A stretch of 64,000 nucleotides of DNA, taken from contig NZ_KI632511.1 in NCBI RefSeq assembly GCF_000504285.1, positions 741,372 through 805,371 on the forward strand, written 5' to 3'. The translations under genes and the position numbers were made by a program. Below, one piece after another: positions 22,301-40,132 of the stretch. Within the stretch, counting starts at the first letter, position 1. Every line of letters begins with the position of its first letter. Under the pieces are notes generated by a model. The model saw only the letters and a list, made by a program, of their open reading frames with translations, did no database searches and was not told the origin of the DNA. The stretch is from Actinospica robiniae DSM 44927. Lineage in GTDB: Bacteria; Actinomycetota; Actinomycetes; Streptomycetales; Catenulisporaceae.

Positions 22301-25300
22301 GTACACGGCGGTGGGTCGGCCGAGCGCATCGTACTGCTCCGTCGTGATATCGCCGGCAGGGTTGGTGACCGTGGTCGCCAGTTCCCGCAGCGGATCGTAT
22401 GCGGTGGTGGTGATCAGGCCCTTCGGGTCGGTCACCTCGATGCTGGTCGGCTCCGCTCCCGTCGCCGGAGTGTACAGGGTGGCGGTGGTGCGGGAGTCGG
22501 CGTCGGTGGCGGAGGTGGCGCGGCCGTACTCGTCGTAGACGGTGGTCGCCGTGGTCACGTAGTTCGGGGTGGACCCCGTGTAGGACGCAGCCTTCTGCGT
22601 CTTCGTGGCGTCACCTGTGGTAGGCGCGGCGCCCAGTGTCGTGGAGTTGTCGTAGTAGGTCAGGGTGTCGGAGACGGCGTCCGCGGGTAGCGAGGGCGTG
22701 GTGGTGCAGGGCACGGAGACGGTCTTGACCTCGTCCGGCAGATCCAGGATCCACGCGCTGGTGTTGTCCGCGTAGCTGGTGGTGGTGCACGTGTGCTGGG
22801 AGGCCACAGTGACGTCGCCGAGGGCGTTGACCTGGGTGGCCCGGCCGTAGGAGTCGTGGGTGTAGTCGGTCTCCGTCTCACGCGTCGATCCGGACGCGAG
22901 CGGGGTGTATACGCGCTCTTCGGCCTGGCCGGTGATGAACGCCTGCTGGGACGGCACCCCGCCCGTCAAAGCGTGGGTCGCAGTCGCGCTGCTCGTCCAC
23001 GGGGTGTCGATCGTGTCGCTCACCACCGCGGCACCGTTGAACACCTGCGTTTCGTAGGTCGTGCCCGCGTACTGGTTCGAGTCCACGACCGCTGCGTCGC
23101 CGCGCGTGTCCGAGACAGTGACATTCCGGGTGCTGCCTGAGGCCAAATAGTCCCCGTCCATGCCTTGGAAATAAGTGTACTGCGTCTTCGTGACCGGGTC
23201 TGGGGCTGTGCCCGTCGAGACGATCATCCCCGGGTAGCCCCGGAACTCGTTCCAGGTGCGCTGGTTCGCGGGGGTGAGCGGGTTGTCGTCGTAGTGCCAG
23301 GCGGGGTTGCCGACGGGGGTGTAGATGGTCTGGATCGTGTCGTCGCCGACCCCGCCGGTCGGGTCCTGTTCGGTGACCTCGGCCACGATGTACTTGTTGA
23401 AGTAGTCCTTGATCGGGTCGGAGCCGGCGGCGGGGGCCCATTTCACTGGGTAGCACAGCATCGTGTTCGCCGAGTCGTTGGACGGCGTCGCACTGCCGCA
23501 GCCGGGCGCGGAGTATCCGACGCTGATGATCTCGCCGGTCTCGGTGACGATCTTGTTCAGGCGCTGACGGGTGATCCACGGGTATCCGTCGGTCAGATCG
23601 ACCCTGTTCTGCAACAAGGTGCCGGTGAAGGTGATCTGGGGCAGTGGGATGGAGGAAGTGGATCCGCCGGCGGTGATGTCCAGCCCCGTCTGCGTGATCG
23701 TGGAGAGCCAGAGAGAAGGAGTGGAGGAATCCTTGGTGTCGGTGATCGCGGGCAGGGCATAGGTCAGTGCCCACGAGTCCACCTGGGTCAAGCTCGTGCC
23801 GGACAGTACCGAGGTTTTGACCCCCGTCAGCTCATCTTCGGACCAGAAGGTCGGAGACTGCAGGGAGCACGCTGCCTTGGCGGCGCAGTTCAGGTCGTAG
23901 GGGACATCCGGCCAGTCCGATGCGGTCGAACTGCTCAACGTGCTTGTGTCACACCCGGTCGGAGAGGTGGTGCAGCGCCCGCTATAGGACAAGTCCACCT
24001 GGCCCGCGGGCGTCGAGGAGTAGACCGCACCCGCCCGCTGTCCGTACTCGATCTTCGACAGGACACTGTCACGCGTGTACGCCGACGTCGAAGCGGCCGT
24101 CGTGCCCAGATCCTGCGCATAGTAGGCCGTGGTCTTCGTGTACCAGTAGGAGACCGCGTCGGAGTGGGTGTCCACGACGTAGTCGAGATTCCACCGGTAG
24201 GCCTGCTCACAGTACGAACTCGGGAACGATGTCTGGTAGCACGGCTGGCCGGAGGCGGTAGCGTAGACCGGCTCCGTGTCCACGGAGTCGGTCTGCGCGT
24301 CCGTGCCGGCATACCCGGGCAACTCGTTCAGGCCGAAGTAGTACTGCGTGCCATCGGTGCTCGTCACCACCCAGTACTCGCCGTTGTGCGCGCCGTTGAC
24401 CGCGCCGGTCTCGTACTGCACACGCTCGCCTGCGTCTCCGGCCAGATGATACGTGCCAGTGGTGTCGTCCTTGATCAGGATCGAGGTCTGGCCGTTCAGG
24501 TCGATCGTCAGCTGGTTGTCGTTCGACCAGCAGTTGTCGTAGGTCTTGCTCGAGCCGGTGGGGTTCTGGCTGCAGGAAGCGTAGGAGCGCTCGATGAAGG
24601 AGTCGGTCAGGTCCCAGCCGTCGCCGACGACCCCGGCCTGGTTGTTGGTGGCTGAGGTGAGCCCGTCCACGGACTGGGAGTCGTACGACAAGCCGAGCGA
24701 GGGCTCGAGGCCGCCGGGGACCTCAGGTGTCGAGATCGGATACGACCAGGTGAACGCGTCCGCGCTCCCGCCCGACGACCAGGACCCGGAGTCCGGTTTG
24801 AGGCTGGTCGCCGTGTAGTCCCCGCCCCCGGACCCGGCAGAGCTCTCGGTGTCCGAGGTGATGGCCAGGACGAGCGGCGTGGCGATCGAGGCGGAGGACG
24901 CCGACTTGGTTTTCGACGGAGCGCTCTCGGACGCGGCGCCGCTCGTGCCCGCGAGCGTGCCCGAGGACGCGGGCAGCGTGGCTGTGGCGCTCAGCGTCTG
25001 GGTCCTCGTGTTGTTGCTGAACGCCACCGGCTGCTGCACCCGGCATGCCGGAACATCGGGGGTGGTCAGCGCGCAGGCGGGCAGGGAGACCAGGGCCAGC
25101 CGCGCGTTCCAGTCTCCGCCGAATGCGTCCTGGAACTGCTTGTAGGACACGGTGATCGCCACGCTGCCGGGCTTGGACACGCCGTCCGCGCGGGTCACGG
25201 CCAGAAGTACCCCGTTCGCGCCCGCAGCCTGGGCGGCTGCGCGCGGTTCGACCGTGACGGAGGCTTTTGACGGCGAATCTGCGGAAGACGAGGACTTGGG

Positions 25301-25657
25301 CGTGTGCTCATCCCCCGGGGCGAGGGTGACCGGGAGCGACCCGGCCACCTGGGCGCTAGCCGCGCCCGCGAGCGTGACGGTCGCGCTGCCCGAGGGCCAC
25401 ACCGGCGCCACGGTTTTCGCCGAGGTCTCCGGCGTCGGCTTGGTGTAGTGGGAGATGACGGGGGAGACCGGGATCGACTTGGTCGGCGCCACGCTCACCG
25501 AGCCCATGCTGCTCGCGGCGAGTGCCGGGCTCCCGAACAGCACCTGCGCCGCGAGCGCCGCAACCGTCACCGCCGCGAGCGCACCGACGCGTCGCCGACG
25601 GAAAATCCCACCTACCATGTCTATTATCGAATATGCGGCCATGCGTATGCAGTCCAT
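19307..25657 (-). CDS. giant secreted RHS/YD-repeat protein
   Basis: About 2116 residues. The ATG at 25657 was chosen because GGGAGGG lies just upstream; an open extension to 25762 has no such site. A signal peptide (basic FRRRR, then VGALAAVTVAALAAQVLF, cleavage near SPALAA) is followed by a SpvB-like N-terminal module (LEPSLGLSYDSQSVDGLTS). Next come many YD repeats (YDEYGRATSATDAD, YDALGRPTAV, YTYDPAGQKATETDAAGN) and the RHS core (RRQYLPFGGARG to GRFLSVDPIFEAD and YDYSGNDPVTRSDPSG). Beyond the core is a variable 190-residue tail with a charged helix and two tandem 24-residue units, each starting HAPGAAG. The shell would enclose and release the tail, probably in contact-dependent competition; the tail matches no toxin I know. 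Confidence 0.88.
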   Translation of the reverse strand: MDCIRMAAYSIIDMVGGIFRRRRVGALAAVTVAALAAQVLFGSPALAASSMGSVSVAPTKSIPVSPVISHYTKPTPETSAKTVAPVWPSGSATVTLAGAASAQVAGSLPVTLAPGDEHTPKSSSSADSPSKASVTVEPRAAAQAAGANGVLLAVTRADGVSKPGSVAITVSYKQFQDAFGGDWNARLALVSLPACALTTPDVPACRVQQPVAFSNNTRTQTLSATATLPASSGTLAGTSGAASESAPSKTKSASSASIATPLVLAITSDTESSAGSGGGDYTATSLKPDSGSWSSGGSADAFTWSYPISTPEVPGGLEPSLGLSYDSQSVDGLTSATNNQAGVVGDGWDLTDSFIERSYASCSQNPTGSSKTYDNCWSNDNQLTIDLNGQTSILIKDDTTGTYHLAGDAGERVQYETGAVNGAHNGEYWVVTSTDGTQYYFGLNELPGYAGTDAQTDSVDTEPVYATASGQPCYQTSFPSSYCEQAYRWNLDYVVDTHSDAVSYWYTKTTAYYAQDLGTTAASTSAYTRDSVLSKIEYGQRAGAVYSSTPAGQVDLSYSGRCTTSPTGCDTSTLSSSTASDWPDVPYDLNCAAKAACSLQSPTFWSEDELTGVKTSVLSGTSLTQVDSWALTYALPAITDTKDSSTPSLWLSTITQTGLDITAGGSTSSIPLPQITFTGTLLQNRVDLTDGYPWITRQRLNKIVTETGEIISVGYSAPGCGSATPSNDSANTMLCYPVKWAPAAGSDPIKDYFNKYIVAEVTEQDPTGGVGDDTIQTIYTPVGNPAWHYDDNPLTPANQRTWNEFRGYPGMIVSTGTAPDPVTKTQYTYFQGMDGDYLASGSTRNVTVSDTRGDAAVVDSNQYAGTTYETQVFNGAAVVSDTIDTPWTSSATATHALTGGVPSQQAFITGQAEERVYTPLASGSTRETETDYTHDSYGRATQVNALGDVTVASQHTCTTTSYADNTSAWILDLPDEVKTVSVPCTTTPSLPADAVSDTLTYYDNSTTLGAAPTTGDATKTQKAASYTGSTPNYVTTATTVYDEYGRATSATDADSRTTATLYTPATGAEPTSIEVTDPKGLITTTAYDPLRELATTVTNPAGDITTEQYDALGRPTAVYEPGFPAATKVPNQKFTYTVSGTAPSVVDTYTLNDDESYRLSETIYDSMLRAREVQTGTVDGNRDITDTYYNTDGWTSETTNPYYNANPVTATLVQTQTPPETQAQPGDVPAATGYTYDGVGRQTAVISYNLSVEKWRTSYSYGGNFTTTIPPAGGTATTTVTNALGQQTDLIQYLAGQPTNYVTDPAGDYTDTTYTYDPAGQKATETDAAGNKWSWAYNLLGQQTDAYDPDAGHSVDTYDNAGQLITSTDARGKQSTYVYDKDGRKTAAYDTTSTQTLSSTNETGSWVYDTLKQGMLTSSTSYSNGDTYTSSISGYNAMDLPTATKVTLTGTDAALVPSGGYTTGYGYTFTGLPKTVIDPAMGGLPSETVTTGYNTYGQPISLAGTGSVNWNYVSAIGYDQYDHPTQYTMPTVSGHVLATLSYDPQTSALTSIETTDTTSTNPVDQLSYYYGDNSGTVSKGSGLLTEVVDKQNGTATVDTQCFTYDYAQRISQAWTATDNCDATPTPGSSASVGGTDAPYWQSWTYDAAGDRLTQTDHDTSGVTANDTTTTYHYPTQPSSTDQPTTLTNTTATGPNATADTASYSYDAAGNETGQTGGTPGTETYTWNDQDQLQTATTSAGTTNYVYDTAGNQIIMRDPTSTTLTIGDAQLNLVTGSGNVTGTRYYSVGGVTVAERTSAGAVDCLIPDRQGTDQLAISTTAAQTVTRRQYLPFGGARGGSTAWVGGDKGYVGGQADSTTSLETLGARVYNAASGRFLSVDPIFEADDPTQIAGYDYSGNDPVTRSDPSGQRDCVDSCGSEADQDYAKAQEKQSYEEQQEYYDSEAKKAENQAIDDCTSNACITRTVRNTNNAKAKEALVEKYEEQQIAAQQSQARWANDGMGAPSSGYFIGSFGGVGIGRLTAGLALPDEIKALGPETGVVRGSGGQHHAPGAAGGGDGDELMEQTLLQDLDHAPGAAGSGDPAQLMEQFLALQNMDFAQEFYYRLLKDHQAMVEIY
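19370..19516 (-). repeat. tandem duplication in the RHS C-terminal tail
   Basis: Two adjacent units (19445-19516 and about 19370-19444) encode HAPGAAGGGDGDELMEQTLL and HAPGAAGSGDPAQLMEQFLA with matching continuations (QDLD, LQNMD). DNA similarity is high, pointing to a recent internal duplication. Confidence 0.75.
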
Positions 25658-25914: not shown

Positions 25915-28900
25915 GTGAATACACGCATACATCGAAACTCGCATCGCGCGGCTGCTGCCGCCCTGGCGGTCGTAGTGACGGTGGCCGGCGCCGGCTTGCT
26001 CGTCCCCGCTGCTTCGGCGCAGACCGGCGCACAGGCACCGGCGGCCGCGACCGGCAGTCCCGCGCCGGTCGCCTCGTCGGCGGGCACGCCGGCCGGCACG
26101 CAGTCCCTGGCGGACGGCTACGGGCTGAGCGCCGCGCAGCAGAAGGCCGTCGACCAGGCTGCGACGCAAGCCCGGAAGACGGGACGGCCGGTGCCGATCA
26201 GCGCCCTGACCAGCGAGACCTGGCAGGTCTCCGCCGAACCCGGCGGAGGGCTGGAGTTGGCGGACAACCCCGCTCCCGCGCGTACTCTGCAGCACGGCGC
26301 GTGGGTACCGGTGGATACCACCTTGCACGAGAACTCGGACGGCACCTACACGCCGGCTGCCACCGCCTATGCGACCGCGCGCCTGTCCGGCGGGGGCAGC
26401 GGCCCGCTGGTGACCACGACCACCTCGAGCGGCGCGAGCTACCAGCTGTCCTGGCCGACCGCGCTCCCCGCCCCCTCGGTCTCCGGCTCCAGCGCGACCT
26501 ACAGCAACGTGATCGCAGGGGTCGACCTCCAGGTCGATGCGAACTCCACCGGCGGCTTCTCCGAAGTCCTGATCGTGCACAACGCCAAGGCCGCCGCCGA
26601 TCCGCGGCTTGCGAAGCTCGCGCTCGCCGTGCACTCCTCCGGCACCAGCCCGGGCACCGGAACCACGCTCGCAACCGCCCCCGACGGCCTGCAGTTAGCC
26701 CTGTCCGACGCCATGATGTGGGACTCCGAGACCACTCCCACTGCAGCCGACAGTGCCGCGGCGAAGAGCGCTGCCGGCACCTCCGGCGCCAAGGCGCCGA
26801 GCCCGGCTCAGATCGCCGCCTCCGACCCTTCCGACGCGACCCACCCGGGCTACGCCGCGCACCAGGCCCCGCTCCAGGTCTCCTCGTCCGGCAGTTCGCT
26901 GACACTGAGCCCGGACAAGGCCATGCTCACAGGCAAGGAGACGGTCTTCCCCGTCTACATCGACCCGAGCCTGAGCTGGCACCCCAGCTCGCCCAGCGCC
27001 TGGGCGTACGACGAGACGAAGCAGGGATCGCCGTGTAACGGCCAGTCCTACTACAACGACACCGCCGAAGACGACAACTCGCTCGGCGTCGGCTGGACCA
27101 ACACCTACTGCGGCGGATACCAGCGCACCTTCTACCAGTGGAAGCTGCCCCCGGCCATCGCCAATGCGACCATCCACCTCGCGACCGTGAAGGCCACCGA
27201 GAACTGGCAGGCGTCCTTCTCCTGCAGCGAGTCACGCACCGTGGACCTTCACCTGGCCGTCGGCATCGGCGCAGGCACCGACTACAACAACACCAACCCT
27301 GGCTACATCACCGGCTCCAGCGCCTACTCGACCTCGGCGAGCGTCGGCGCGGCGTACAACCCGTCGGGCTGCCAGAGCCCCATCACCTCCCCGGCCTCCT
27401 TCACCGTCACCACCCCGGTGCAGGCGGCCGCCACCAGCAGCGCCAGCCAGATCACCTTCGTCATGGACCAGGGCTCGAACACCGACTACGCGGACTTCGA
27501 CCGGTTCACCGACAACCCCACGCTCAACATCTCCTTCGACCACGCCCCCACCACCCCGACCGCCGCCCAGCTCTCCGCCGCGGTCGGCGGCTCCGACACG
27601 GCCGCGTGCGCCACCGCCGCCCCGTACCCGTACATCGGCAAGGCGATCGCGACCAACAATGTCACCCTGACCGCGACGAACATCACCAGTCCGGACAGCG
27701 ACGAACTTCAGGCCACCTTCAAATACTGGATCACCGGGTCCTCCACCACCAGTACCGGGGAATCGGCCGACAACCTCGCCTCCGGCGGCAGCGCCAGCTA
27801 CACGCTGCCCGCCGCCTTCACCCAGGGCCTGACCGACGGGCAGTCGGTGTCCTGGCAGGTGCAGACCACCAACGGCACCCTGACCTCCGGCTGGTCGCCG
27901 ACCTGCACCTACACCGCCGAACCCACAGGCCCGGACGAGCCGGCCATCACCGCGAACACCACCTACCCCGACAACACCACCGGCGCCGCGGCAGGCACCA
28001 CGGCGACCTTCACCGTGACCGGTAACACCGACGGCACCGCGGCGACGGAGTTCTACTACCGGCTCGACGCCGCCCCGGTGACCACCGGCACCATCCCCGC
28101 CACCCAGATCGCCACCGCCACCAACAACTCCGGCACCTTCACCATCACCCCCGCCTGGGCCGGGCTCCACACTCTCTACGTCGAGTCCGTCGACGCCGCC
28201 GGCGACGTCTCTGGCGCCAACTCCTACATCGTCATCGCCGCAGCCCACGCCCCGAGCACCTGCGCCAGCCTCGCGGCCTGCTTCAACAACACCGCGATCA
28301 GCGCCGACGCCACCCCCTCCCAGGCCAACGCGGACGGCAACGGGTACAGCTTCTCCGCCACCAACCTCACCGCCGCCGGATGGAACAGCGCCGGCGGGCA
28401 CATGAGCATCGACGGCACGAACCTCGCGCTGCCCGCGTACGGCTCCGGGCAGAAAGACAACGTCCTGGCCGCGAACCAGACCATCACCTGCACGACCACG
28501 GCTTCTATGAACTGCGCCACCAATGCGACCGGTGCCAGTGCCCTGACGTTCCTGACCACCGCCACCTACGGCGGGATGGCCGAGCCCGGCTCGATCTCCG
28601 GAGACACCACCGCCCCCTACATCCCCGCGGGCTCCCTGGTCGCCGGGTCCTACGTCAATGACGGCTCCCTTCAAGACGCCATCGGCGCCCCCACCGGCAC
28701 CGTCAACTACGCCGACGGCACCTCGGACACCTACACTCTGACGGTCCCGGACTGGTCGAGCGGCCCGAGCAACCTCGCCGCGTTCACCATGCCCTCCTTC
28801 AACAACCCGGCCGGGAAGAAGACCTCCACGGCGAAGATCTACGCGTTCAGCGTCCCGCTGAGACCCGGCGCGACCATCTCCTCGATCACCCTGCCCGACG

Positions 28901-31023
28901 TGTCCGGCACCCCCGGCCCCGGCATTCCGGCCGTGCACATCTTCTCCATCGGCACCCGCAACACCACGACCGGCACGGTCAAGGCCGACGGCACCACCGC
29001 GACCCTGGCCAGCCCCAACACCTGGACCGGGGCATGGGCCTCCGACAACGAGGCCAACTACAACTACGAATCAGGCAACTTCAACAACCAGTCCTTCCGC
29101 GTCCTGCTCCAGCCCACCGTCACCGGCACCGCCATCCGGGTCAAACTGGACAACGCGCTCGGCACCAGCCCCCTCGACGTCGGCCACGCCACCGTCGCAC
29201 TGACCAACGGCACCGCCATCACCCCCACCGCAGCCACCAGCGCCGCACCAGTGAACCTCACCTTCGCTGGCTCGACCAGCACCGTGATCCCCGAGGGCGC
29301 CATGGTCTACTCCGACCCGCTGCCGTTCAACGTCACCGCAGGACACTGGCTCGCCGTCTCCTTCCAGCTCACCAACTCCATCCCCTACCTGGTCGAACAC
29401 TCCTGGGTCACCGACTCCTACGAATACACCGCCCCCATCGGCTCCGGTGACCACACCGCAGACACCGCCGCCACCACCTACACCGCTTCCGGCTCCCTCA
29501 ACGGCGCCTACACCAACCTGGTCACCGGCCTCGACGTACAGACTGCGGGCATGCCCACCCAGATCGTGCTCGGCGACAATCTCATCGACGCGTTCGAACC
29601 GAACACCGCACCCCTCTCCCCCAACAACGGCGCGGCGCTGCGCCTGTCCGACGACATCGCGGCGGCCTCCGCCACCGCCCTGGCCCCGTACGGCACCATC
29701 AACGCAGGCATCGAATCCAACCAACTCGTCACCGACTACCCCGAGACCCGCAACGGCACCACCAACGGCGGCGCAGTCGGCGGACCCGCCGCCCTCACCC
29801 GCGTCGACCGCGACCTGCTCGACGAACCGGGCCTGAACACCGTCATCCTCGACGAAGGCCTCGAAGACGCCCTCGCCGGCACCAACGCCGCCACCATCGA
29901 GGACGGCTACAGCAACCTGCTCGGCTACCTCCAGGCCACCGGCATCAACACCCAAGGCGGCACCGGCGGCACCGAAGCGTTCCCCAGCATCGTCGACGTC
30001 GGCCTGACCCCGTGCGACACCTACAACGGTGACGGCGCCGCCACCCACAACGACCCGTGCAACAGCAGCGTCGATGCCACCCGCACCGTGATCAACGGTT
30101 GGCTCTCCAGCTACCCCGATGGACTGTGGTCCTGGACCCAGCCGGCCTACTACTACATCGACCCCGACAAGACGATCGGCGTGACTGACGCGAGCGACGG
30201 CGCCACCAAACTCAACCCGCTCGCCATGGTCGGCACCAGCCGCAGCAACACCCCCTCAGACCCGGTCAACCTCACCAACGCCGGCACCGGCGCGCTGGCC
30301 AACGCCATCCTCGCCGCCACCGACACCTGGGCCCTGAACGACGGCGCCGGCTCCACCACCGCAGGCGACGGTGCTCTGAATGACGGCTCCAACAGTTACC
30401 TCACCCAAACCGACCCCATCAACGCCGGAAACAACCCCCTGACCCTGACCGGCGGATACACCTGGCCCACCGCCACCGTCGGCGCCAACACTGGCACCAC
30501 CGTCCTCGGCCTCGGCGGCACCAGCGGCTACGGCGCAACCAGCGGACCACTCATCGACACCACCAGAAGCTTCTCCATCAGCGCCTGGGCCGAACCGTCA
30601 GTCAGCAGCGCCGGAGTGATCGCCAGCCAGGACGGCACCAGCATCAGCGGATTCGTCCTCTACGCCACCGCCACGGGCGGATGGGCCTTCGCCATGTCCC
30701 CGACCGACAGCGCCACCTCGACCGCAGACAAGGCCAGTACCGCAAGCTCGACCGACAACCCTGGAAAGTGGACCTACCTCACCGCCACCTACAACGCTGC
30801 AAACGGCACCATGAGCCTCTACGTCAACGGCGCACTAGCCGCCACCGGAACGCACACCACTACGTGGAACGCCACCGGATCCTTCGTTATCGGCCGCGAC
30901 TTCGTCAGCGCCCCCGACGGCTTCTTCAACGGAGATATCAGCAATGTCCAAGCATTCAACTACGCATTGAGCGCACCGCAGATCACCGCGCTCTACGACC
31001 AGATCACTCCGCTCAACCACTAG
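25915..31023 (+). CDS. giant secreted protein with SGNH-like and LamG domains
   Basis: 1702 residues. A signal peptide (basic start, then AAAAALAVVVTVAGAGLLVP, cleavage at ASA-QT) is followed by a Ser/Thr/Ala-rich N-terminal half with DNRLRE/beta-sandwich-like repeats, then an SGNH-hydrolase-like region (about 1010-1440) and a C-terminal LamG/concanavalin-like domain (about 1535-1700: SFSISAWAEPSVSSAGVIAS, GKWTYLTATYN, LYVNGALAA, DISNVQAFNYAL). In the SGNH part the block-I motif reads VLGDNLIDAF. Asparagine replaces the nucleophile serine, so it may bind rather than cut its ligand. It is divergent from the RHS gene across 257 bp; the two very large secreted genes probably belong together. Confidence 0.85.
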   Translation: MNTRIHRNSHRAAAAALAVVVTVAGAGLLVPAASAQTGAQAPAAATGSPAPVASSAGTPAGTQSLADGYGLSAAQQKAVDQAATQARKTGRPVPISALTSETWQVSAEPGGGLELADNPAPARTLQHGAWVPVDTTLHENSDGTYTPAATAYATARLSGGGSGPLVTTTTSSGASYQLSWPTALPAPSVSGSSATYSNVIAGVDLQVDANSTGGFSEVLIVHNAKAAADPRLAKLALAVHSSGTSPGTGTTLATAPDGLQLALSDAMMWDSETTPTAADSAAAKSAAGTSGAKAPSPAQIAASDPSDATHPGYAAHQAPLQVSSSGSSLTLSPDKAMLTGKETVFPVYIDPSLSWHPSSPSAWAYDETKQGSPCNGQSYYNDTAEDDNSLGVGWTNTYCGGYQRTFYQWKLPPAIANATIHLATVKATENWQASFSCSESRTVDLHLAVGIGAGTDYNNTNPGYITGSSAYSTSASVGAAYNPSGCQSPITSPASFTVTTPVQAAATSSASQITFVMDQGSNTDYADFDRFTDNPTLNISFDHAPTTPTAAQLSAAVGGSDTAACATAAPYPYIGKAIATNNVTLTATNITSPDSDELQATFKYWITGSSTTSTGESADNLASGGSASYTLPAAFTQGLTDGQSVSWQVQTTNGTLTSGWSPTCTYTAEPTGPDEPAITANTTYPDNTTGAAAGTTATFTVTGNTDGTAATEFYYRLDAAPVTTGTIPATQIATATNNSGTFTITPAWAGLHTLYVESVDAAGDVSGANSYIVIAAAHAPSTCASLAACFNNTAISADATPSQANADGNGYSFSATNLTAAGWNSAGGHMSIDGTNLALPAYGSGQKDNVLAANQTITCTTTASMNCATNATGASALTFLTTATYGGMAEPGSISGDTTAPYIPAGSLVAGSYVNDGSLQDAIGAPTGTVNYADGTSDTYTLTVPDWSSGPSNLAAFTMPSFNNPAGKKTSTAKIYAFSVPLRPGATISSITLPDVSGTPGPGIPAVHIFSIGTRNTTTGTVKADGTTATLASPNTWTGAWASDNEANYNYESGNFNNQSFRVLLQPTVTGTAIRVKLDNALGTSPLDVGHATVALTNGTAITPTAATSAAPVNLTFAGSTSTVIPEGAMVYSDPLPFNVTAGHWLAVSFQLTNSIPYLVEHSWVTDSYEYTAPIGSGDHTADTAATTYTASGSLNGAYTNLVTGLDVQTAGMPTQIVLGDNLIDAFEPNTAPLSPNNGAALRLSDDIAAASATALAPYGTINAGIESNQLVTDYPETRNGTTNGGAVGGPAALTRVDRDLLDEPGLNTVILDEGLEDALAGTNAATIEDGYSNLLGYLQATGINTQGGTGGTEAFPSIVDVGLTPCDTYNGDGAATHNDPCNSSVDATRTVINGWLSSYPDGLWSWTQPAYYYIDPDKTIGVTDASDGATKLNPLAMVGTSRSNTPSDPVNLTNAGTGALANAILAATDTWALNDGAGSTTAGDGALNDGSNSYLTQTDPINAGNNPLTLTGGYTWPTATVGANTGTTVLGLGGTSGYGATSGPLIDTTRSFSISAWAEPSVSSAGVIASQDGTSISGFVLYATATGGWAFAMSPTDSATSTADKASTASSTDNPGKWTYLTATYNAANGTMSLYVNGALAATGTHTTTWNATGSFVIGRDFVSAPDGFFNGDISNVQAFNYALSAPQITALYDQITPLNH

Positions 31024-33891: not shown

Positions 33892-33959
33892 TCGGCGGTG
33901 CCCGGGACGAAGCAGATGCCGCGCATCGTCGGCGGGACGCCGGATCTCAGGCTTCGAAG

Positions 33960-34031
33960 AGGCGGAGGCGGGAATCGAACCCACGTGCGAGGCTTTGCAG
34001 GCCACGTCCTAAACCACTCGGACACTCCGCC
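33960..34031 (-). tRNA. tRNA-Cys (anticodon GCA)
   Basis: Acceptor strands GGCGGAG (34025-34031) and CTCCGCC (33961-33967) pair perfectly. The D stem GTCC/GGAC, anticodon loop CTGCAAA and T arm GTGGG-TTCGATT-CCCGC are in place, with a short variable loop. The anticodon stem GTGGC/GCCTC holds one T-T mismatch, which is unusual. No CCA is encoded. Confidence 0.85.
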
Positions 34032-34283: not shown

Positions 34284-35012
34284 TCAGGGCTCGTTGCCGT
34301 GCGCCTCGGGCACGATTCGCAGGCAGGCGTAGGCGCGCAGGCGGTCGGGGGCATGGTCGTCGCGGTGAACACGCAGCGCGCAGTACGGAGTGGTCAGGTC
34401 GGTCAGGCGCGGGACATGACGGAGCAGCAGTCGATCGCCCGGCTGGAGCGTGCCGGTCAACGCGGCCTCGGCGAGGGTGTGGTTGAGGTGTACGAGGTAG
34501 TCGGTTGTGGAGACGCCTGCCGTGGCCATGAGGAGCTCGAACCTCCGGCCGTGTGCCCCCGTGATGTCAATCGTCTGGTTCGATGGCGGCCGAAGCTCCG
34601 CCGTGCCGATGAACGCTTTCAGCAGCCGGCGCAGGCCGGTGCCCTCGGCTGAGGAGCCGGGGCCGAACCAGGCGATCGAGGCGTCCGCCGATACCTGGTT
34701 GAACCGGAAGCGATGGGCGAGGTTCGCCGGGTTGCCGGTCAGGAACAGGGTGCGGGTGAACGCCCGGAGCCAGTTCTCGGCCTGCCCGCCGTCCAGGCTG
34801 AACGCGAACCGCAGGCTGGAGTGGGCGAAGGCGACCGGGTCGAAGCGGCTCAGCACCACGAGCGCGGCGACGTCGGGGGCGTCGGCCTCGGCCGCCGCGA
34901 GGCGCGACAGATCCGGCGCCGCATCCGAGGCCGGATCCGGCTGCGGGCAACCGGTCGCGGCCCGCACCCGCCGGGCGAGTTCGCGGCGCAACAGTTCCTG
35001 AACTCCTGACAT
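34284..35012 (-). CDS. operon protein of unknown function (DUF6182-like)
   Basis: A 242-residue soluble protein, last gene of the five-gene operon. Features are a central FDPVAFAHSSLRFAFSLDGG, LFLTGNPANLAHRFRFNQV, and a C-terminal YLVHLNHTLAEAALTG-TLQPGDRLLLRHVPRL. I believe it belongs to DUF6182, a family seen beside adenylating enzymes in streptomycete clusters, but I cannot confirm this. The start ATG overlaps the preceding stop by one base (TGATG), so translation is coupled to the upstream gene. Confidence 0.6.
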   Translation of the reverse strand: MSGVQELLRRELARRVRAATGCPQPDPASDAAPDLSRLAAAEADAPDVAALVVLSRFDPVAFAHSSLRFAFSLDGGQAENWLRAFTRTLFLTGNPANLAHRFRFNQVSADASIAWFGPGSSAEGTGLRRLLKAFIGTAELRPPSNQTIDITGAHGRRFELLMATAGVSTTDYLVHLNHTLAEAALTGTLQPGDRLLLRHVPRLTDLTTPYCALRVHRDDHAPDRLRAYACLRIVPEAHGNEP

Positions 35013-36124
35013 CAGCAGTAGACCTGCTCGATCAGATCGCGTACGGGCGGGTTGCGATGGCGAGTGAGCATCTCGGCAGTCAGCCGGTACGGGTCGACGT
35101 GTTGCTTCGCACCGGTATACCTGCCCACGTATTTCGCCAGCTCGGCGCCGGACGGCGCGGCGTCGTACTCGGTCGCCGCAAGCAGCCGCCCGGCCCGATC
35201 CACGGTCCGGCGCAGCACCTCTGCGCGGAACGATTCGCTACTGCCCTTGCCCAGTACGGCGATGAAGTGCATGCGCATTCCCAGTTTCAGTGCCTCCGCG
35301 CCAGAACCGTCGCATGCCGCGAGCATCGCAGGCAGCGTGTGCCCCTGCCAGCCGCCGTGCCGACTCGCTTTGACCACGCCGTCGATCGGTACCCGGTCCA
35401 GCGAAACCCTCACCGCGTTCGCGCCGAGGGCGCCGAGTACTCGCTGCAACAACACGTAGTCCTCTGTCAGCTCCCGATCGTGTACCAGCACGATCTCTTC
35501 ATAGCGCGCCGCCGACGGCACCAACTCCCGCAGCGTCCCCGCGAGATAGTTCGGCTGGCCTTCGGGCGAGACGATCTGACGCAGCGGCAGGCCATACCTC
35601 GTCCCGTCCAGATAGACCGGGCCGCCGTGATTCCGGCCGTCCAGACACAGGTATTGGCCCGCGAGCGTGTCGAGGAGTTCGGGCAGGTCGATCCCGGGCG
35701 GCTGGATCCGGGTCAGTCCGGGGTCGTGCATGCCGAGCTGCGCGTAGTATCCCGTCCACAGCCTCAGCAGCCGGGCGCTGGCCGGGTGCACCCATCCGCT
35801 CTCCTCGACGGCGCGCAGGTAGGGCTTGAGCGCAGCGAAGGGCACCCGGCCGGGTTCCGCCTGGTAGCGGATGTAGAGCTCTCCAAGCTGCTCTTCGCCG
35901 TATGCGGCGTAGTCGAGGTCACCGAAGGTGCGGTCCAGGTACTCCCAGAAGCCGAGTGTCTGCCGAGTCGTGCTGGACGTCGTGATGCTGTAGTGGTAAT
36001 CCACTTCGGCGACGAGGGCGGTGGCGCGGCGCATCACGTCCACCCACAACAGGCCCTTGATGTGACTGGGAGTCAGGGCTTTGGTCGGCGACACGGTGAC
36101 CGGCGCTATCAGGACCCTGGTCAT
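35012..36124 (-). CDS. operon protein of unknown function (DUF6002-like)
   Basis: A 370-residue soluble protein beginning MTRVLIAPVTVSPTKALTPS. Notable stretches are HIKGLLWVDVMRRATALVAE, FWEYLDRTFGDLDYAAYGEE, YLCLDGRNHGGPVYLDGTRY and RYEEIVLVHDRELTEDYVLL. It lacks nucleotide-binding or membrane motifs. It resembles what is called DUF6002 in actinobacteria; enzymatic activity is not known. The start at 36124 is 46 bp after the methyltransferase stop, and its end overlaps the next start by one base. Confidence 0.6.
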   Translation of the reverse strand: MTRVLIAPVTVSPTKALTPSHIKGLLWVDVMRRATALVAEVDYHYSITTSSTTRQTLGFWEYLDRTFGDLDYAAYGEEQLGELYIRYQAEPGRVPFAALKPYLRAVEESGWVHPASARLLRLWTGYYAQLGMHDPGLTRIQPPGIDLPELLDTLAGQYLCLDGRNHGGPVYLDGTRYGLPLRQIVSPEGQPNYLAGTLRELVPSAARYEEIVLVHDRELTEDYVLLQRVLGALGANAVRVSLDRVPIDGVVKASRHGGWQGHTLPAMLAACDGSGAEALKLGMRMHFIAVLGKGSSESFRAEVLRRTVDRAGRLLAATEYDAAPSGAELAKYVGRYTGAKQHVDPYRLTAEMLTRHRNPPVRDLIEQVYC

Positions 36125-36170
36125 CGAGGCACTCCTGTTCTCCCGTTCGCCGTGGCCTGCCGCATCTCCG

Positions 36171-37052
36171 TCAGGCCCGGATTCCGTGGACGTAGAAGAC
36201 GCGGGGGACTCCGGGCGCGTCCCTGGGCGGCACCTCGTCTCGCCACCGGCCGTAGTGCGCACCGGGCTCGCCGGGTTGGGCCGCGACCGCGTCGAATCCG
36301 GCCGCCCGCAGCAGCTTCTCCGGTTCGTCGCAGCCCGAGATCCAGGGTGATCCCCACGCGGCGAACAGCTCGAGCAGTCGGGCGGTCGACGGCGCGGTGA
36401 GCGCAGCCTCGTTGACCAGGTCGCAGGCGAGTTCGCTGCCGGCCGCGCAGAGCTCGCCGATCTCGCCGAGCAGCCGGCGCACCTCCTGCTCGGCAAGGTA
36501 GTAGAGCAGGCCTTCGAGGATCCAAACGCTGGGCCGGTCGGGGTCGAAGCCGGCATCGACCAGGCCCGTGGGCCAGCCGGCGTCGACCAAATCGGCATGC
36601 ACGGTCACGCGGGCGACGCCCGAGGCGGCGTCCTGCCCGGCGAGTGCGGCTTCTTTGTGCGCGAGCACCTCCGCACGGTCGAGCTCGAAGATCCGCACGG
36701 GACGAGGCCACGCCAGCCGGTAGGCCCTGGTGTCCATTCCGGCCGCCGCGATTACCACCTGCTCGACCTCGCCTCGCCCGACGGCCGCGATGGCCCAGTC
36801 GTCGATGAACCGAGTGCGAATCGCGTTGTAGTCGGCGGTGTTCGGCAGCCGCAGCCCGTCGGGTTGCGGTGTTTGCCGCTGTGCCGCGGTGGTCGCGGCC
36901 ACCTCGTCGAACAGAGCGAAACCGGCCTCGCCCGCCAGCGATTTCGCATACGGGTCGTGATACAGCCGGTCCGGGCGGGAGCTTTCCACGGCCCGGAGGG
37001 CGGTGGTGAGCAACGCCGTTCGGGCGACCGCGTCGAACCCTGACGGGCTCAT
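36171..37052 (-). CDS. SAM-dependent methyltransferase, LCM/PPM family
   Basis: A 293-residue class I methyltransferase. SAM-binding motif VVIAAAGMDTRAYRLAWP carries the GxDTR signature of leucine-carboxyl-methyltransferase relatives. Acidic FELDRAEVLAHKE and VWILEGLLYYLAEQEV are further family motifs. Members methylate carboxylates or hydroxyls of small molecules. The ATG at 37052 overlaps the GH3 stop by four bases (ATGA). In this operon it could esterify the acid handled by the GH3 enzyme, or its conjugate. Confidence 0.85.
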   Translation of the reverse strand: MSPSGFDAVARTALLTTALRAVESSRPDRLYHDPYAKSLAGEAGFALFDEVAATTAAQRQTPQPDGLRLPNTADYNAIRTRFIDDWAIAAVGRGEVEQVVIAAAGMDTRAYRLAWPRPVRIFELDRAEVLAHKEAALAGQDAASGVARVTVHADLVDAGWPTGLVDAGFDPDRPSVWILEGLLYYLAEQEVRRLLGEIGELCAAGSELACDLVNEAALTAPSTARLLELFAAWGSPWISGCDEPEKLLRAAGFDAVAAQPGEPGAHYGRWRDEVPPRDAPGVPRVFYVHGIRA

Positions 37053-38734
37053 GCTCGCGCCTCGCTGCCCAGGGTGAGTAGCCGTGCCCACGCCGCATCA
37101 TCGCGCTCGAACACCCTGTCTTTGACCTGCGCGGGCCGAGTGCCGGCTTCGACCCGGGCCTGCCATTGCACGTCGAAGGCATCTCGGGCGAGCACATGCA
37201 GCGCCGGCGGATCCAAACGCCCGGCGGTTCTGGCCGACGCGTAGCCCGAAGCCACATCGCGCAGCGCGGCGTCCACCGACGACGCCAGCTCCCTGACTTC
37301 GACGGCGCCGAACGGGCTGTGCGGCGCCAACGCGAACTCGTAACGCGGCCTCGTCTCCCCGGGCGGCGATACGGCCCTGCAGGAGGCGTTGCGGACCTCG
37401 AGGCCCTGCGCGCCGAGCGCGGTCTGCAGCGCGCGTACCACGTGAGACTCGCGCAGCCGTTCGCCGGCCACGTCGGAGCGATTGCCCCGTCCGGCGTACG
37501 AGATCCGCGGCATCGCGCCCACCCGGTCGACGACGCGAACGACGTCGCCGAGCGCGTATCGGTACAGCCCGCCGATGTGGCTGAGTACCACGTGGTACTC
37601 GCGGCCCACCTCCAGCTCGTCGAACAACAGCGTCGTGGAGTCCGGCCGCACGTCTTCGTCCGCGTCGACGAACTCGTGGAACGCCGCGGTGATCGCCGCC
37701 GAGCCTGCCGTGAGGTGCCGGTCGAGCGCGACCCCGACGAAGCCCTCCGACGCGGCGACCGGGGCGGGAAGTACGGTCACGCCCGGTCCGAAACTCTCCT
37801 TGAGCCGCGGCAGGTACAGCGAGGCCAGCCCGGTGGTCCAGCAGAACAGAAGCTTGAAGTTCGGCCAGACGTGCGCCGGACGCAGAGTGCCGGAGTACTC
37901 TGCCATCCGCTCCAGCTGTGCGGCGCGTTCCGGGTTCGGTGTCCCGTGGCGGTGGCCGCCGAGCGTGCCGTCGTGCAGCTCTCGTACGATGCGCGGCCAC
38001 CACTGCTCGAGCTGGTAGGGGACTGCTGCGACCATCGCCGGATTGATCCCGATGACGCAACGTACGTCGTGCTCGACCGCCAGGCGCAGCCGCAGGTAGG
38101 CCTTCTCCAGATAGTCGCCCTCGTCGACGGGGACCGGCAGCACGCCCCACGGTGCTCGCGAACCGGGCTCGGCGGAGAGCGGCTCGCCGAAGGCCTGGCC
38201 GAAGTCGACCTGGCTGGCGCCCAGATGCGGCCGCCCGGAGGCGGTGGTCCCGGTGCGGCTGACCGGATCGTGCTTGAGGTTGAGGGTGCTCTCGTCGCGC
38301 GAGACGACTTCGGGGAAGTGCTCGACGATGTTGGCCCATGCCGCGTAGTACGGTGGAAAGAACCCGGTGCGCATGAACTCGCGGGTGATCGGGATCTTCT
38401 TGCTGTCACCGGTGCTGCCGCTGCTCTTGAAATACACGACCGGGTCGTCCGCCGAAAGGACCCCGGCTTCGCCCCCGGCGGCCCGATCGATCCACGGCGC
38501 GAGCGCGTCGTAGTCGCGGATCGGGACCGCGGCACGGTAGCTCTTCCAGTCGCGGATGTTCTTGAAGCCGTGTTTCAGCCCGAAGGCCGTCTCGGCGTTC
38601 GCGGTCAGCAGTCCGGTCAGCACCCGCCGTTGGGCCTCGTGCGGCGAACGGAGTGCGCACTGCAGCGCATCGCGTTCGGCCAGCACCCGTTGCCGATAGG
38701 GCTCGAAGTGCTCAGCCGACGACTTCGACGACAT
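37049..38734 (-). CDS. GH3-family acyl-adenylating / amino-acid conjugating enzyme
   Basis: A 561-residue member of the GH3 auxin-responsive-promoter family (not a glycosidase). It has the ATP-binding SSGSTGDSKKIPIT, a mid-domain GPGVTVLPAPVAASEGFVG and the C-terminal HIGGLYRYALGDVVRVVDRV motif typical of plant JAR1/GH3 synthetases, which link carboxylic acids to amino acids through acyl adenylates. The start at 38734 is set by GAGGAGGG four bases upstream. It overlaps the kinase-like gene by 23 bp and the methyltransferase by 4 bp. Bacterial homologues are little studied; substrate unknown. Confidence 0.85.
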   Translation of the reverse strand: MSSKSSAEHFEPYRQRVLAERDALQCALRSPHEAQRRVLTGLLTANAETAFGLKHGFKNIRDWKSYRAAVPIRDYDALAPWIDRAAGGEAGVLSADDPVVYFKSSGSTGDSKKIPITREFMRTGFFPPYYAAWANIVEHFPEVVSRDESTLNLKHDPVSRTGTTASGRPHLGASQVDFGQAFGEPLSAEPGSRAPWGVLPVPVDEGDYLEKAYLRLRLAVEHDVRCVIGINPAMVAAVPYQLEQWWPRIVRELHDGTLGGHRHGTPNPERAAQLERMAEYSGTLRPAHVWPNFKLLFCWTTGLASLYLPRLKESFGPGVTVLPAPVAASEGFVGVALDRHLTAGSAAITAAFHEFVDADEDVRPDSTTLLFDELEVGREYHVVLSHIGGLYRYALGDVVRVVDRVGAMPRISYAGRGNRSDVAGERLRESHVVRALQTALGAQGLEVRNASCRAVSPPGETRPRYEFALAPHSPFGAVEVRELASSVDAALRDVASGYASARTAGRLDPPALHVLARDAFDVQWQARVEAGTRPAQVKDRVFERDDAAWARLLTLGSEARA

Positions 38735-39359
38735 GGTCCCTCCTCGTGATCCGTCGTATCGCTTCCACCGTGGGACCGACACCCTGCGTCGGCGCGGGCA
38801 TGTCCACGGCGACGGCCCCGACCTCCCGCAGCATCAGCTCGCGCAGGTCGGTCTGGAACCGGCGGAAGCCCTCCCAGGTGGGGGCCGCGCCGTAGTACTC
38901 GAAGGGATTGAGCCGTGAGCCCTGGCCGCTGCGCTTCCAGGCGGTCTCCGGGGGCACGTCGAGGTAGATCACCCGGCTCGGCTGCGGAAACGAGCGCCAC
39001 CAGGCGAACAGCTGCTCGTTGACCATGCCCTTGAGCAGGCACTTGGCCAGGATCTTGTAGTAGTAGGAATCGGTGACGACCGGCCGGCCCGGCGACGCCC
39101 GGACGGTTCGATCCCGCAGGTAGACCACAGAGGCCTGCAACAGCGTCACCAGGAAGTCCGGCGAGTAGGCGGTTTCGATCCCCGGCAGCCCTCGGCCGAC
39201 GAATCCATCCCGGAGATCGTCGACCAGCGAGCACTCCGGCTCGACGAACTCGCGATCGTAGGAGACGCACTGCCAGCCGTCCGCCGACAAGGCGGCGAGT
39301 ACCGAGGACTTCCCCGCGTAGTCGGGGCCGAGCAGGACTATGAAATCCGGGGACGGCAT
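38712..39359 (-). CDS. P-loop kinase-like protein (thymidylate-kinase fold)
   Basis: A 215-residue protein with Walker A LLGPDYAGKSS, a DRE motif (VSYDREFVEPE), VVTDSYYYKILAKC, and the lid-like WKRSGQGSRLNPFEYYG. The fold resembles thymidylate kinases, but the substrate-site residues differ and a small-molecule substrate is likely. It is the first gene of the operon. A GTG at 39371 would add four residues; the ATG at 39359 is preferred because it gives better spacing to upstream purines. It may phosphorylate the substrate or product of the GH3 enzyme. Confidence 0.75.
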   Translation of the reverse strand: MPSPDFIVLLGPDYAGKSSVLAALSADGWQCVSYDREFVEPECSLVDDLRDGFVGRGLPGIETAYSPDFLVTLLQASVVYLRDRTVRASPGRPVVTDSYYYKILAKCLLKGMVNEQLFAWWRSFPQPSRVIYLDVPPETAWKRSGQGSRLNPFEYYGAAPTWEGFRRFQTDLRELMLREVGAVAVDMPAPTQGVGPTVEAIRRITRRDHVVEVVG

Positions 39360-39507: not shown

Positions 39508-40095
39508 CTAGGGCGAGGGGTCCGGATCGGCCTCGAAGGCGCGGATGGCGAGAGCGGCGAAGCGGCGGGACGCTTTGAGCCGGACGGCCGTCGACTTCGC
39601 CTCGATGCCGCTGTGCGCCGTGAGCATGAGGATCAGGTCGTCTACGGCGAAGTCGTCGCGCAGGCGGCCGGTCCGCTTGGCGCGAAGGGTGAGCTCGGCG
39701 ACCGAGGCGAGCGCGAACTCCCGTTCCGCGGCGAAGTCCACCGCGACCGGATAGGCCGAGAGGAACGCCGCCGTGAAACCGCGGTCCCGGGCGTGCAACT
39801 CGCAGATCCGCTCGAACAGGAGGCGAAAGCCGCGCCACGGGTCCGGGTCCGCGAGGGCCTCCTCGACCAGGGCGTGACACGCGTGGAACTGGTCCCGGAA
39901 GGCCTCGAGTGCCAGCGCCTCCTTCGTCGGGAAGTGCCGGTAGAGCGTGGCGGGCCCGACCCCGGCCCGCCGTGCGATCTCGCGCATCGGCACCTTCAGG
40001 CCGTCGTCGGCGAACACCGCACGAGCCGCCTCCAGAATGCGGCGGCGGTTGTCCTGCGCGTCGGACCGGGGAGTTCGAGGCAAAAGGTCGCTCAC
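39508..40095 (-). CDS. TetR-family repressor of the adjacent oxidoreductase
   Basis: A 195-residue protein. HTH domain: NRRRILEAARAVFADDGLKV, then MREIARRAGVGPATLYRHFP. The C-terminal domain is SBP-type (HARDRGFTAAFLSAYP). Possible GTG starts are 40104 and 40095; the 40095 start is preferred because purines precede it and the TTG at 40113 would place the start inside the operator. It is divergent from the quinone-oxidoreductase-like gene with a perfect dyad between them. Confidence 0.82.
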   Translation of the reverse strand: MSDLLPRTPRSDAQDNRRRILEAARAVFADDGLKVPMREIARRAGVGPATLYRHFPTKEALALEAFRDQFHACHALVEEALADPDPWRGFRLLFERICELHARDRGFTAAFLSAYPVAVDFAAEREFALASVAELTLRAKRTGRLRDDFAVDDLILMLTAHSGIEAKSTAVRLKASRRFAALAIRAFEADPDPSP

Positions 40096-40112
40096 CTGTC
40101 TCACTTTAGCCA

Positions 40113-40132
40113 AACGGACGGGGGCGTCCGTT
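40113..40132. promoter_or_regulatory. operator between TetR and the oxidoreductase
   Basis: AACGGACG (40113-40120) and CGTCCGTT (40125-40132) are perfect inverted arms with four bases between. Another CGTCCG follows at 40135-40140. Size and place fit a TetR dimer site. Confidence 0.65.

Follow-up and report, generated by a model that had tools for sequence, protein, structure and literature searches.

A published relative of the locus considered here is the nine-gene region rubM2-rubP4 inside the rubiginone cluster of Streptomyces sp. CB02414 (PMC8487521). According to the available part of that report, this 8.8-kb region shares its organisation with one in S. hundungensis that lies outside any recognisable cluster; as its origin the authors suggest an insertion through transfer or transposition, and no role is given to the region in that part (PMC8487521). 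Among GH3-family proteins of bacteria, OlsH makes lyso-ornithine lipid (PMC12493201, as far as its available text goes), and the accessible part of a review names AcmF (ascamycin) and SbzA (SB-203208) as aminoacyl-tRNA-synthetase-like proteins in Streptomyces metabolite synthesis (PMC12945691). Here we analysed a five-gene operon in a 64,000-nucleotide stretch of Actinospica robiniae DSM 44927 (contig NZ_KI632511.1, positions 741,372 to 805,371), which is called the window and is numbered from its first letter; the genome carrying it is a single contig of 9.92 Mb. The operon encodes, in this order, a P-loop kinase (KIN), a GH3 homologue, an LCM-type methyltransferase (MT), a protein termed P2 and a DUF6182 protein. 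With moderate confidence we regard it as a co-inherited and probably laterally mobile specialised-metabolite cassette, which would build a small molecule without non-ribosomal peptide synthetase (NRPS) or polyketide synthase (PKS) modules of its own and with two independent carboxylate activators, GH3 and P2.

The window and the rub region share five genes in the same order, RubP4, RubP3, RubM3, RubP2 and RubP1 corresponding to KIN, GH3, MT, P2 and DUF6182, whereas RubB4 (an oxidoreductase), RubA3, RubO and RubM2 are additions of the rub form that the window lacks (PMC8487521, available part); our locus L020 was equated with the rub region by strain, gene order and sizes. The tight packing of five minus-strand genes (39359-34284) reported in the initial annotation was borne out: neighbouring genes overlap by 23, 4 and 1 bp, and the single gap measures 46 bp. 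These figures are exact for the starts given below, longer in-frame starts being possible for KIN, GH3, MT and P2; for DUF6182 the gene-calling script favoured a shorter start. The families named there stand for GH3, for the LCM-type MT and, in a weakly thymidylate-kinase-like form, for the P-loop kinase, and the two proteins left as unknown turned out to be DUF6182 and P2.

38712..39359, minus strand: KIN, 215 aa; P-loop kinase, nearest to thymidylate kinases, below their cut-offs
37049..38734, minus strand: GH3, 561 aa; GH3-family acyl-acid amido synthetase homologue; PF03321, PF23571 and PF23572 above cut-offs
36171..37052, minus strand: MT, 293 aa; LCM-type S-adenosylmethionine-dependent methyltransferase; PF04072 and TIGR00027 above cut-off
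35012..36124, minus strand: P2, 370 aa; predicted ArgRS-like class I fold (model pLDDT 94.9, Foldseek 2e-10, Z 23.6; terms explained below)
34284..35012, minus strand: DUF6182 protein, 242 aa; PF19680 1.2e-75; residues ~47-134 resemble peptidyl-tRNA hydrolase 2
38408..38425, minus strand: nucleotide-binding motif SSGSTG of GH3; pattern present in 70/70 GH3 proteins
36053..36091, minus strand: P2 residues 12-24, HIGH-like loop with K15 and H21, both in 57/57 rows reaching them
35348..35380, minus strand: P2 residues 249-259, KMSK-like loop with R255 and G257, both in 60/60 rows; first KMSK lysine column variable

The five genes travel as a co-inherited unit, as seen from their joint presence, from further regions and from correlated protein distances. 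Relatives of P2 were searched for with a three-row P2 alignment and two peptide patterns in one genome per species (84,980 species); 110 were found, and the best 80 of these were used in the locus analyses. After 14 of the 80 had been dropped for cut flanks, 66 loci were eligible, in which gene presence was counted by tblastn. All five genes were located within 9 kb on one strand in 55 of the 66. Counted singly, DUF6182 was present in 65, GH3 in 63, MT in 58 and KIN in 60 loci (65 when KIN2, a related kinase found in five of them, is counted as well). The steadiest core comprises P2, DUF6182 and the kinase, and GH3 is nearly as steady. Pairwise distances of the five proteins correlated with each other (Mantel r 0.67-0.90, 57 loci), and for each of the ten pairs 0 of 999 permutations were as high; this set consists of the loci with all five genes called by the simple GC-bias script that served as gene caller, L053 and L077 being excluded. 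Around P2 matches in a sample of the order, 22 regions were inspected, 11 of which lie on contigs equal in length to contigs of the best-80 set and are not independent of it. In the 11 further regions, on contigs judged by length to be additional, P2 always adjoined DUF6182, GH3 was near in all 11, a kinase in 10, and all five genes were found in 7. Hence the outcome that the initial annotation had named as speaking against its proposal, the five families never occurring together elsewhere, did not arise.

By record title, all of the best 80 of the 110 loci belong to Actinomycetota, mostly to Streptomyces. The other host genera are Wenjunlia, Kitasatospora, Virgisporangium, Couchioplanes, Phytohabitans, Actinomadura, Saccharothrix, Actinosynnema, Actinophytocola, Frankia, Protofrankia, Planotetraspora, Streptosporangium and Sphaerisporangium. 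P2 is patchy in the order (25 of 391 genomes sampled, the window's own included) and was not found in any of 13 other members of the window's family whose genomes were searched. A phylum sample of 296 genomes, again including the window's, contained DUF6182 in 2 and GH3 in 4, and P2 occurred in 1 of 72,556 plasmid records. On a quick P2 tree with many weak forks, six families jointly need 13 changes, which is not below shuffled labels (12.9); Streptomycetaceae alone cluster, with 9 changes versus 12.2 shuffled. Among the loci compared, Virgisporangium ochraceum, which belongs to another family, is the window's closest relative for four of the five proteins (47-62%); for GH3 two Streptomyces (68%) narrowly precede it (67%). 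Lateral transfer of the cassette is the simplest reading. The cassette is probably portable, present in many soil actinobacteria and dedicated to making a small molecule. One genome can hold two cassettes, since in both Streptomyces sp. NK08204 (L012, L053) and S. melanogenes (L070, L072) a pair of P2 loci was found, each locus on its own contig.

P2 represents a synthetase-like family for which Pfam has no model, and scans with Pfam and NCBIfam gave no match to it. An AlphaFold2 model based on 60 aligned homologues reached a predicted local distance difference test score (pLDDT) of 94.9 and a predicted template-modelling score (pTM) of 0.93. The best solved structures for this model were arginyl-tRNA synthetases (ArgRS; Foldseek E 2e-10; alignment Z-score 23.6, root-mean-square deviation 3.9, 344 residues, 12% identity), followed by cysteinyl-tRNA synthetase (Z 20.9), MshC (20.2), methionyl-tRNA synthetase (18.4) and PyrN (16.4). 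The confident model thus predicts a class I synthetase fold of ArgRS-like type, and its structural alignment to ArgRS also spans the ~110 residues after the KMSK-like loop. Comparison of the P2 and ArgRS profiles gave 279 collinear columns, whereas six control comparisons with other cassette proteins gave 9-51. In a profile search of the PDB, P. horikoshii ArgRS came first, at E 0.15 and over the HIGH region, and ArgRS Pfam families were not among the matches of the 60 P2 members at E up to 1. P2 and ArgRS are alike in fold, HIGH-loop lysine and collinear core, and differ in length (370 aa versus 449-659 for the ArgRS chains listed) and in this lack of Pfam ArgRS matches.

Asp351 of yeast ArgRS binds arginine. 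P2 column 197, which is aligned to this residue in a weak profile match, holds Ala in 47, Ile in 5, Thr in 3, Leu in 2 and Met in 2 of 60 rows, and the presumed arginine-binding acids are mostly absent from P2. From sequence and model we infer that P2 may adenylate something other than arginine. MshC, the cysteine ligase of mycothiol synthesis, uses a class I synthetase fold on a small acceptor, with cysteine; it resembles P2 in this fold and differs in that no sequence family was common to both in the scans made. AcmF and SbzA, unlike P2, are AlaRS-like and IleRS-like and not ArgRS-like, and the available part of the review names no GH3 (PMC12945691). The literature search found no description of DUF6182 or of a bacterial ArgRS-like enzyme of the P2 type; most subscription journals were outside this search, and a later description is possible. 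The window's genome contains two further ArgRS-type genes (G000:C1:7399768-7400853 and G000:C1:5257306-5258154) with very different PF00750 scores. A second synthetase in a genome can mean self-resistance.

The model of the DUF6182 protein (pLDDT 92.6) had no Foldseek match under 1e-3, and Foldseek alone placed the peptidyl-tRNA hydrolase 2 (Pth2) type at E 0.49. In a second structure search, residues ~47-134 matched six Pth2-type entries at Z 9.8-8.5, the next entry being at 2.8 and the usual no-match level of the tool at Z 7 to 8. PF01981 was not among the families matched by 53 DUF6182 members at E up to 5. A resemblance of this domain to Pth2 is thus suggested as a fold hint only. A hotdog fold was supported by neither structure search and was discarded. 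At residues ~81-95 the DUF6182 profile matched mitoribosomal mL65/MRPS30 (E 0.003); the matching stretch, W-x5-[RK]T-x-FL-x-G-x-P, contains most of the invariant residues of DUF6182. A relationship to mL65 was not supported, because PF07147, used for the reverse search of 10 genomes, failed to recover DUF6182.

PSTK phosphorylates an aminoacyl group on tRNA. A comparable tRNA-linked pathway could be envisaged for the cassette, in which P2 would charge a tRNA or an acceptor-stem mimic, KIN would phosphorylate the aminoacyl group, the Pth2-like DUF6182 protein would release or transfer it and GH3 would use the product. The ArgRS-like fold of P2, the Pth2-like domain and the near-constant set of P2, DUF6182 and kinase fit such a scheme. 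We consider it unlikely: at its length P2 falls short of tRNA-binding parts, the Pth2 resemblance comes without a PF01981 match and with a best Z little above the chance level of the tool, and KIN is nearest to thymidylate kinases.

GH3 is well supported as a family member. Its Pfam N-terminal, central and C-terminal domains scored 163.6, 60.8 and 35.8 bits against a cut-off of 23.6 each, and it matched solved plant GH3 chains with E down to 4.9e-23. In the 70 GH3 proteins SSG[ST]TG is invariant, ASEG occurs in 65 and strict YR-Y-GD in 57; the window protein has all three. With OlsH described, the statement in the initial annotation that no products are assigned to bacterial GH3 relatives no longer holds. 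Like OlsH, the window protein is a bacterial GH3 family member with an SSG-type nucleotide motif; it is not an OlsH, since it reached 79.9 bits with NF052613 (cut-off 620) in a match over residues 290-543, and it has other partner genes (PMC12493201, available part). An OlsH-related amino-lipid pathway, in which GH3 would make an N-acyl amino acid for membranes, appears improbable. OlsH is the sole bacterial GH3 with a product that we found in print and it does match part of the window protein, but the distance to the OlsH cut-off is large, the OlsH/OlsI pathway has, as described in the available text, neither a synthetase-like protein nor a kinase (PMC12493201), and patchy occurrence is ill-suited to a membrane lipid.

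MT matched PF04072 (9.5e-51; 172.8 versus 22.3 bits) and TIGR00027 (1.9e-67; 227.4 versus 93.55 bits). KIN remained below the dTMP kinase cut-offs (PF02223 18.3 versus 27; TIGR00041 23.3 versus 83.25), and a 37-row KIN profile ranked thymidylate kinases first (1e9f, E 0.0056). The invariant columns in these rows are a Walker-type GxDxxGK and DSYYYK, at G11, D13, G16, K17, D97, S98, Y99, Y100 and K102; among the 63 KIN proteins with 180 aa or more, 8 were missed by the Walker pattern, for which shortened starts are a possible reason. In a PHROG scan of three cassette proteins KIN alone was matched, as thymidylate kinase. Anti-phage defence was rejected as a function, with no PADLOC match at E up to 0.01 for any of the five proteins.

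What the analysis directly established is the gene content, the co-inheritance, the placement of GH3 and MT in their families and a predicted P2 fold of synthetase-like type. In the mechanism proposed for the cassette, GH3 would adenylate one acid and join it to an amine. P2, ArgRS-like and without arginine recognition, would adenylate another acid, a neutral amino acid or carboxylic acid, and might pass it in activated form to a small acceptor, by analogy to MshC with cysteine. KIN may phosphorylate a pathway intermediate, the LCM-type MT may methylate a carboxylate, and DUF6182 may be the partner of P2, perhaps a subunit that binds the acceptor or derives from a hydrolase. Elsewhere, loci add to this core a flavoprotein, a hydrolase and a second methyltransferase, or HMG-CoA reductase, polyprenyl synthetase, UbiA-like and TauD proteins. 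We favour a metabolite cassette because of the joint presence in 55/66 loci, the correlated distances, the 11/11 further regions, the predicted P2 fold with its kept ATP-site residues and the GH3 motif in 70/70, and because, in the available parts of both reports, a nine-gene form lies inside the rubiginone cluster (PMC8487521) and AcmF and SbzA provide a precedent (PMC12945691). The idea of a compact five-gene pathway, put forward earlier for this operon, is likewise supported by co-inheritance; its extension to a plant-hormone-like signal is not, as nothing seen points to one.

Several observations weigh against the metabolite cassette. GH3 is not universal, none being seen in L082, L083 and L090, which have P2, DUF6182 and a HIT-like gene (the flanks of L082 are cut); the stricter pattern of GH3 motif III is missing in 13/70 proteins and ASEG in 5 loci of the HMG-CoA-reductase type. 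Most of the 81 loci showed no other metabolite genes in a crude regular-expression scan (adenylation-type motifs in 7, type I or II ketosynthase in 0, ketosynthase III in 1, P450 in 14), a short-sighted one in that L020 shows no ketosynthase in its 21 kb though it lies inside a 44-kb type II PKS cluster (PMC8487521, available part). The sequence link between P2 and ArgRS is weak (probability 8%, E 0.0043). Finally, both signature motifs of P2 are degenerate: in HIGH, Thr mostly replaces the first His (T-P-S-H in most rows) and the second His (H21) is kept, and in KMSK the initial Lys position is variable. Many true ArgRS also lack KMSK, and these rely on the HIGH-loop lysine. The degenerate motifs would suit a non-catalytic or resistance-type P2, a decoy or regulator leaving GH3, MT and KIN as sole enzymes, which we hold very unlikely because K15 and H21 are invariant in the 57 rows reaching them and R244, V245, P246, R255 and G257 are unchanged in 60 rows, so that the region looks like an active site.

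Frankia is a plant-associated genus. A conjugate of a hormone-like acid with an amino acid made by GH3 is the least probable of the explanations considered, and barely credible: the GH3 relatives of solved structure are plant hormone-conjugating enzymes and a few hosts belong to plant-associated genera such as Frankia, but no known hormone gene was seen in the cassette, the hosts are mostly Streptomyces from many sources, and bacterial OlsH acts on fatty acids and ornithine (PMC12493201, available part).

The cassette occurs in several forms. The short form, KIN-GH3-MT-P2-DUF6182, is that of the window; the 'short' class on the tree is a leftover class of 27 rows with the window and includes rearranged loci. 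In the long form (42 loci) MT and P2 are separated by a flavoprotein, and DUF6182 is usually followed by a LysR-substrate-domain protein, an alpha/beta hydrolase and a second methyltransferase. In L084-L087, L089 and L173 the order is P2-DUF6182-GH3, HMG-CoA reductase, KIN2, the reductase carrying an additional C-terminal part. This reductase (L084:10231-12576 and equivalents; PF00368 9.6e-106 in L084) adjoins GH3 and the kinase, and its ~390 extra residues were read as an aminoglycoside-phosphotransferase-like part. L083, L090 and G023, without GH3, contain PPDK-like, UbiA-like, KIN, DUF6182, HIT-like and P2 genes; the UbiA-like call scored 33.5 bits, just under the 34.2 cut-off, and HIT-like is our own reading, Pfam having given none. 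L174 and L175 combine P2-DUF6182-KIN-GH3 with a TauD-type oxygenase, P450 and NRPS genes being next to them, and L172 combines P2-DUF6182-GH3 with a polyprenyl synthetase, no kinase being seen. For the Pfam scan of variant genes one member per gene was used. Directly upstream of their long cassette, L050, L028, L032, L041, L043, L067 and L155-L159 carry an AfsA-type gene (PF03756 in L050, L050:3638-4492) together with a HAD gene, and genes downstream in G023 were read as AfsA-like and ketosynthase-III-like. A link of the cassette to butyrolactone-type signals through such AfsA-type neighbours is possible. The alkyloxazole signal cluster (PMC13367870) was set aside as a different, NRPS cluster, going by the available part of its description.

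A broader generalisation, which we put forward tentatively and regard as rather unlikely, is that P2 as an ArgRS-like ligase, DUF6182 as its Pth2-fold partner and the P-loop kinase form a new biosynthetic module derived from translation-type or nucleotide machinery, which would activate, phosphorylate and transfer an amino acid off the ribosome and would be plugged into different tailoring sets across Actinomycetota (GH3 with MT, HMG-CoA reductase, UbiA/PPDK-like/HIT-like, TauD). The cassette may mark a metabolite group missed by current genome mining, because 80 loci (the best 80 of 110) were found and the S. hundungensis copy lies outside recognised clusters (PMC8487521, available part). Besides the synthetase-like family of P2, it gives a hint at the fold of DUF6182 and defines a minimal set of five genes.

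In the surroundings of the operon, one further gene was considered as a possible local regulator:

39508..40113, minus strand: TetR-type regulator, PF00440 5.3e-17; 148 bp upstream of the operon, same strand

It is located outside the conserved cassette, its sequence cluster being present in 3 of 81 loci. A scan for consensus promoters and terminators matched 0 promoters and 0 terminators. A tRNA-Cys gene (33959-34031) lies on the same strand ~250 bp past the operon end. A tRNA gene as recurrent partner or insertion site was rejected: any tRNA-like gene occurred in 6 of 60 loci, of differing type and place and none with the arrangement of the window. Farther off in the window, two adjoining divergent open frames, 19307-25570 (minus strand) and 25915-31023 (plus strand), are very large, with 2087 and 1702 aa.

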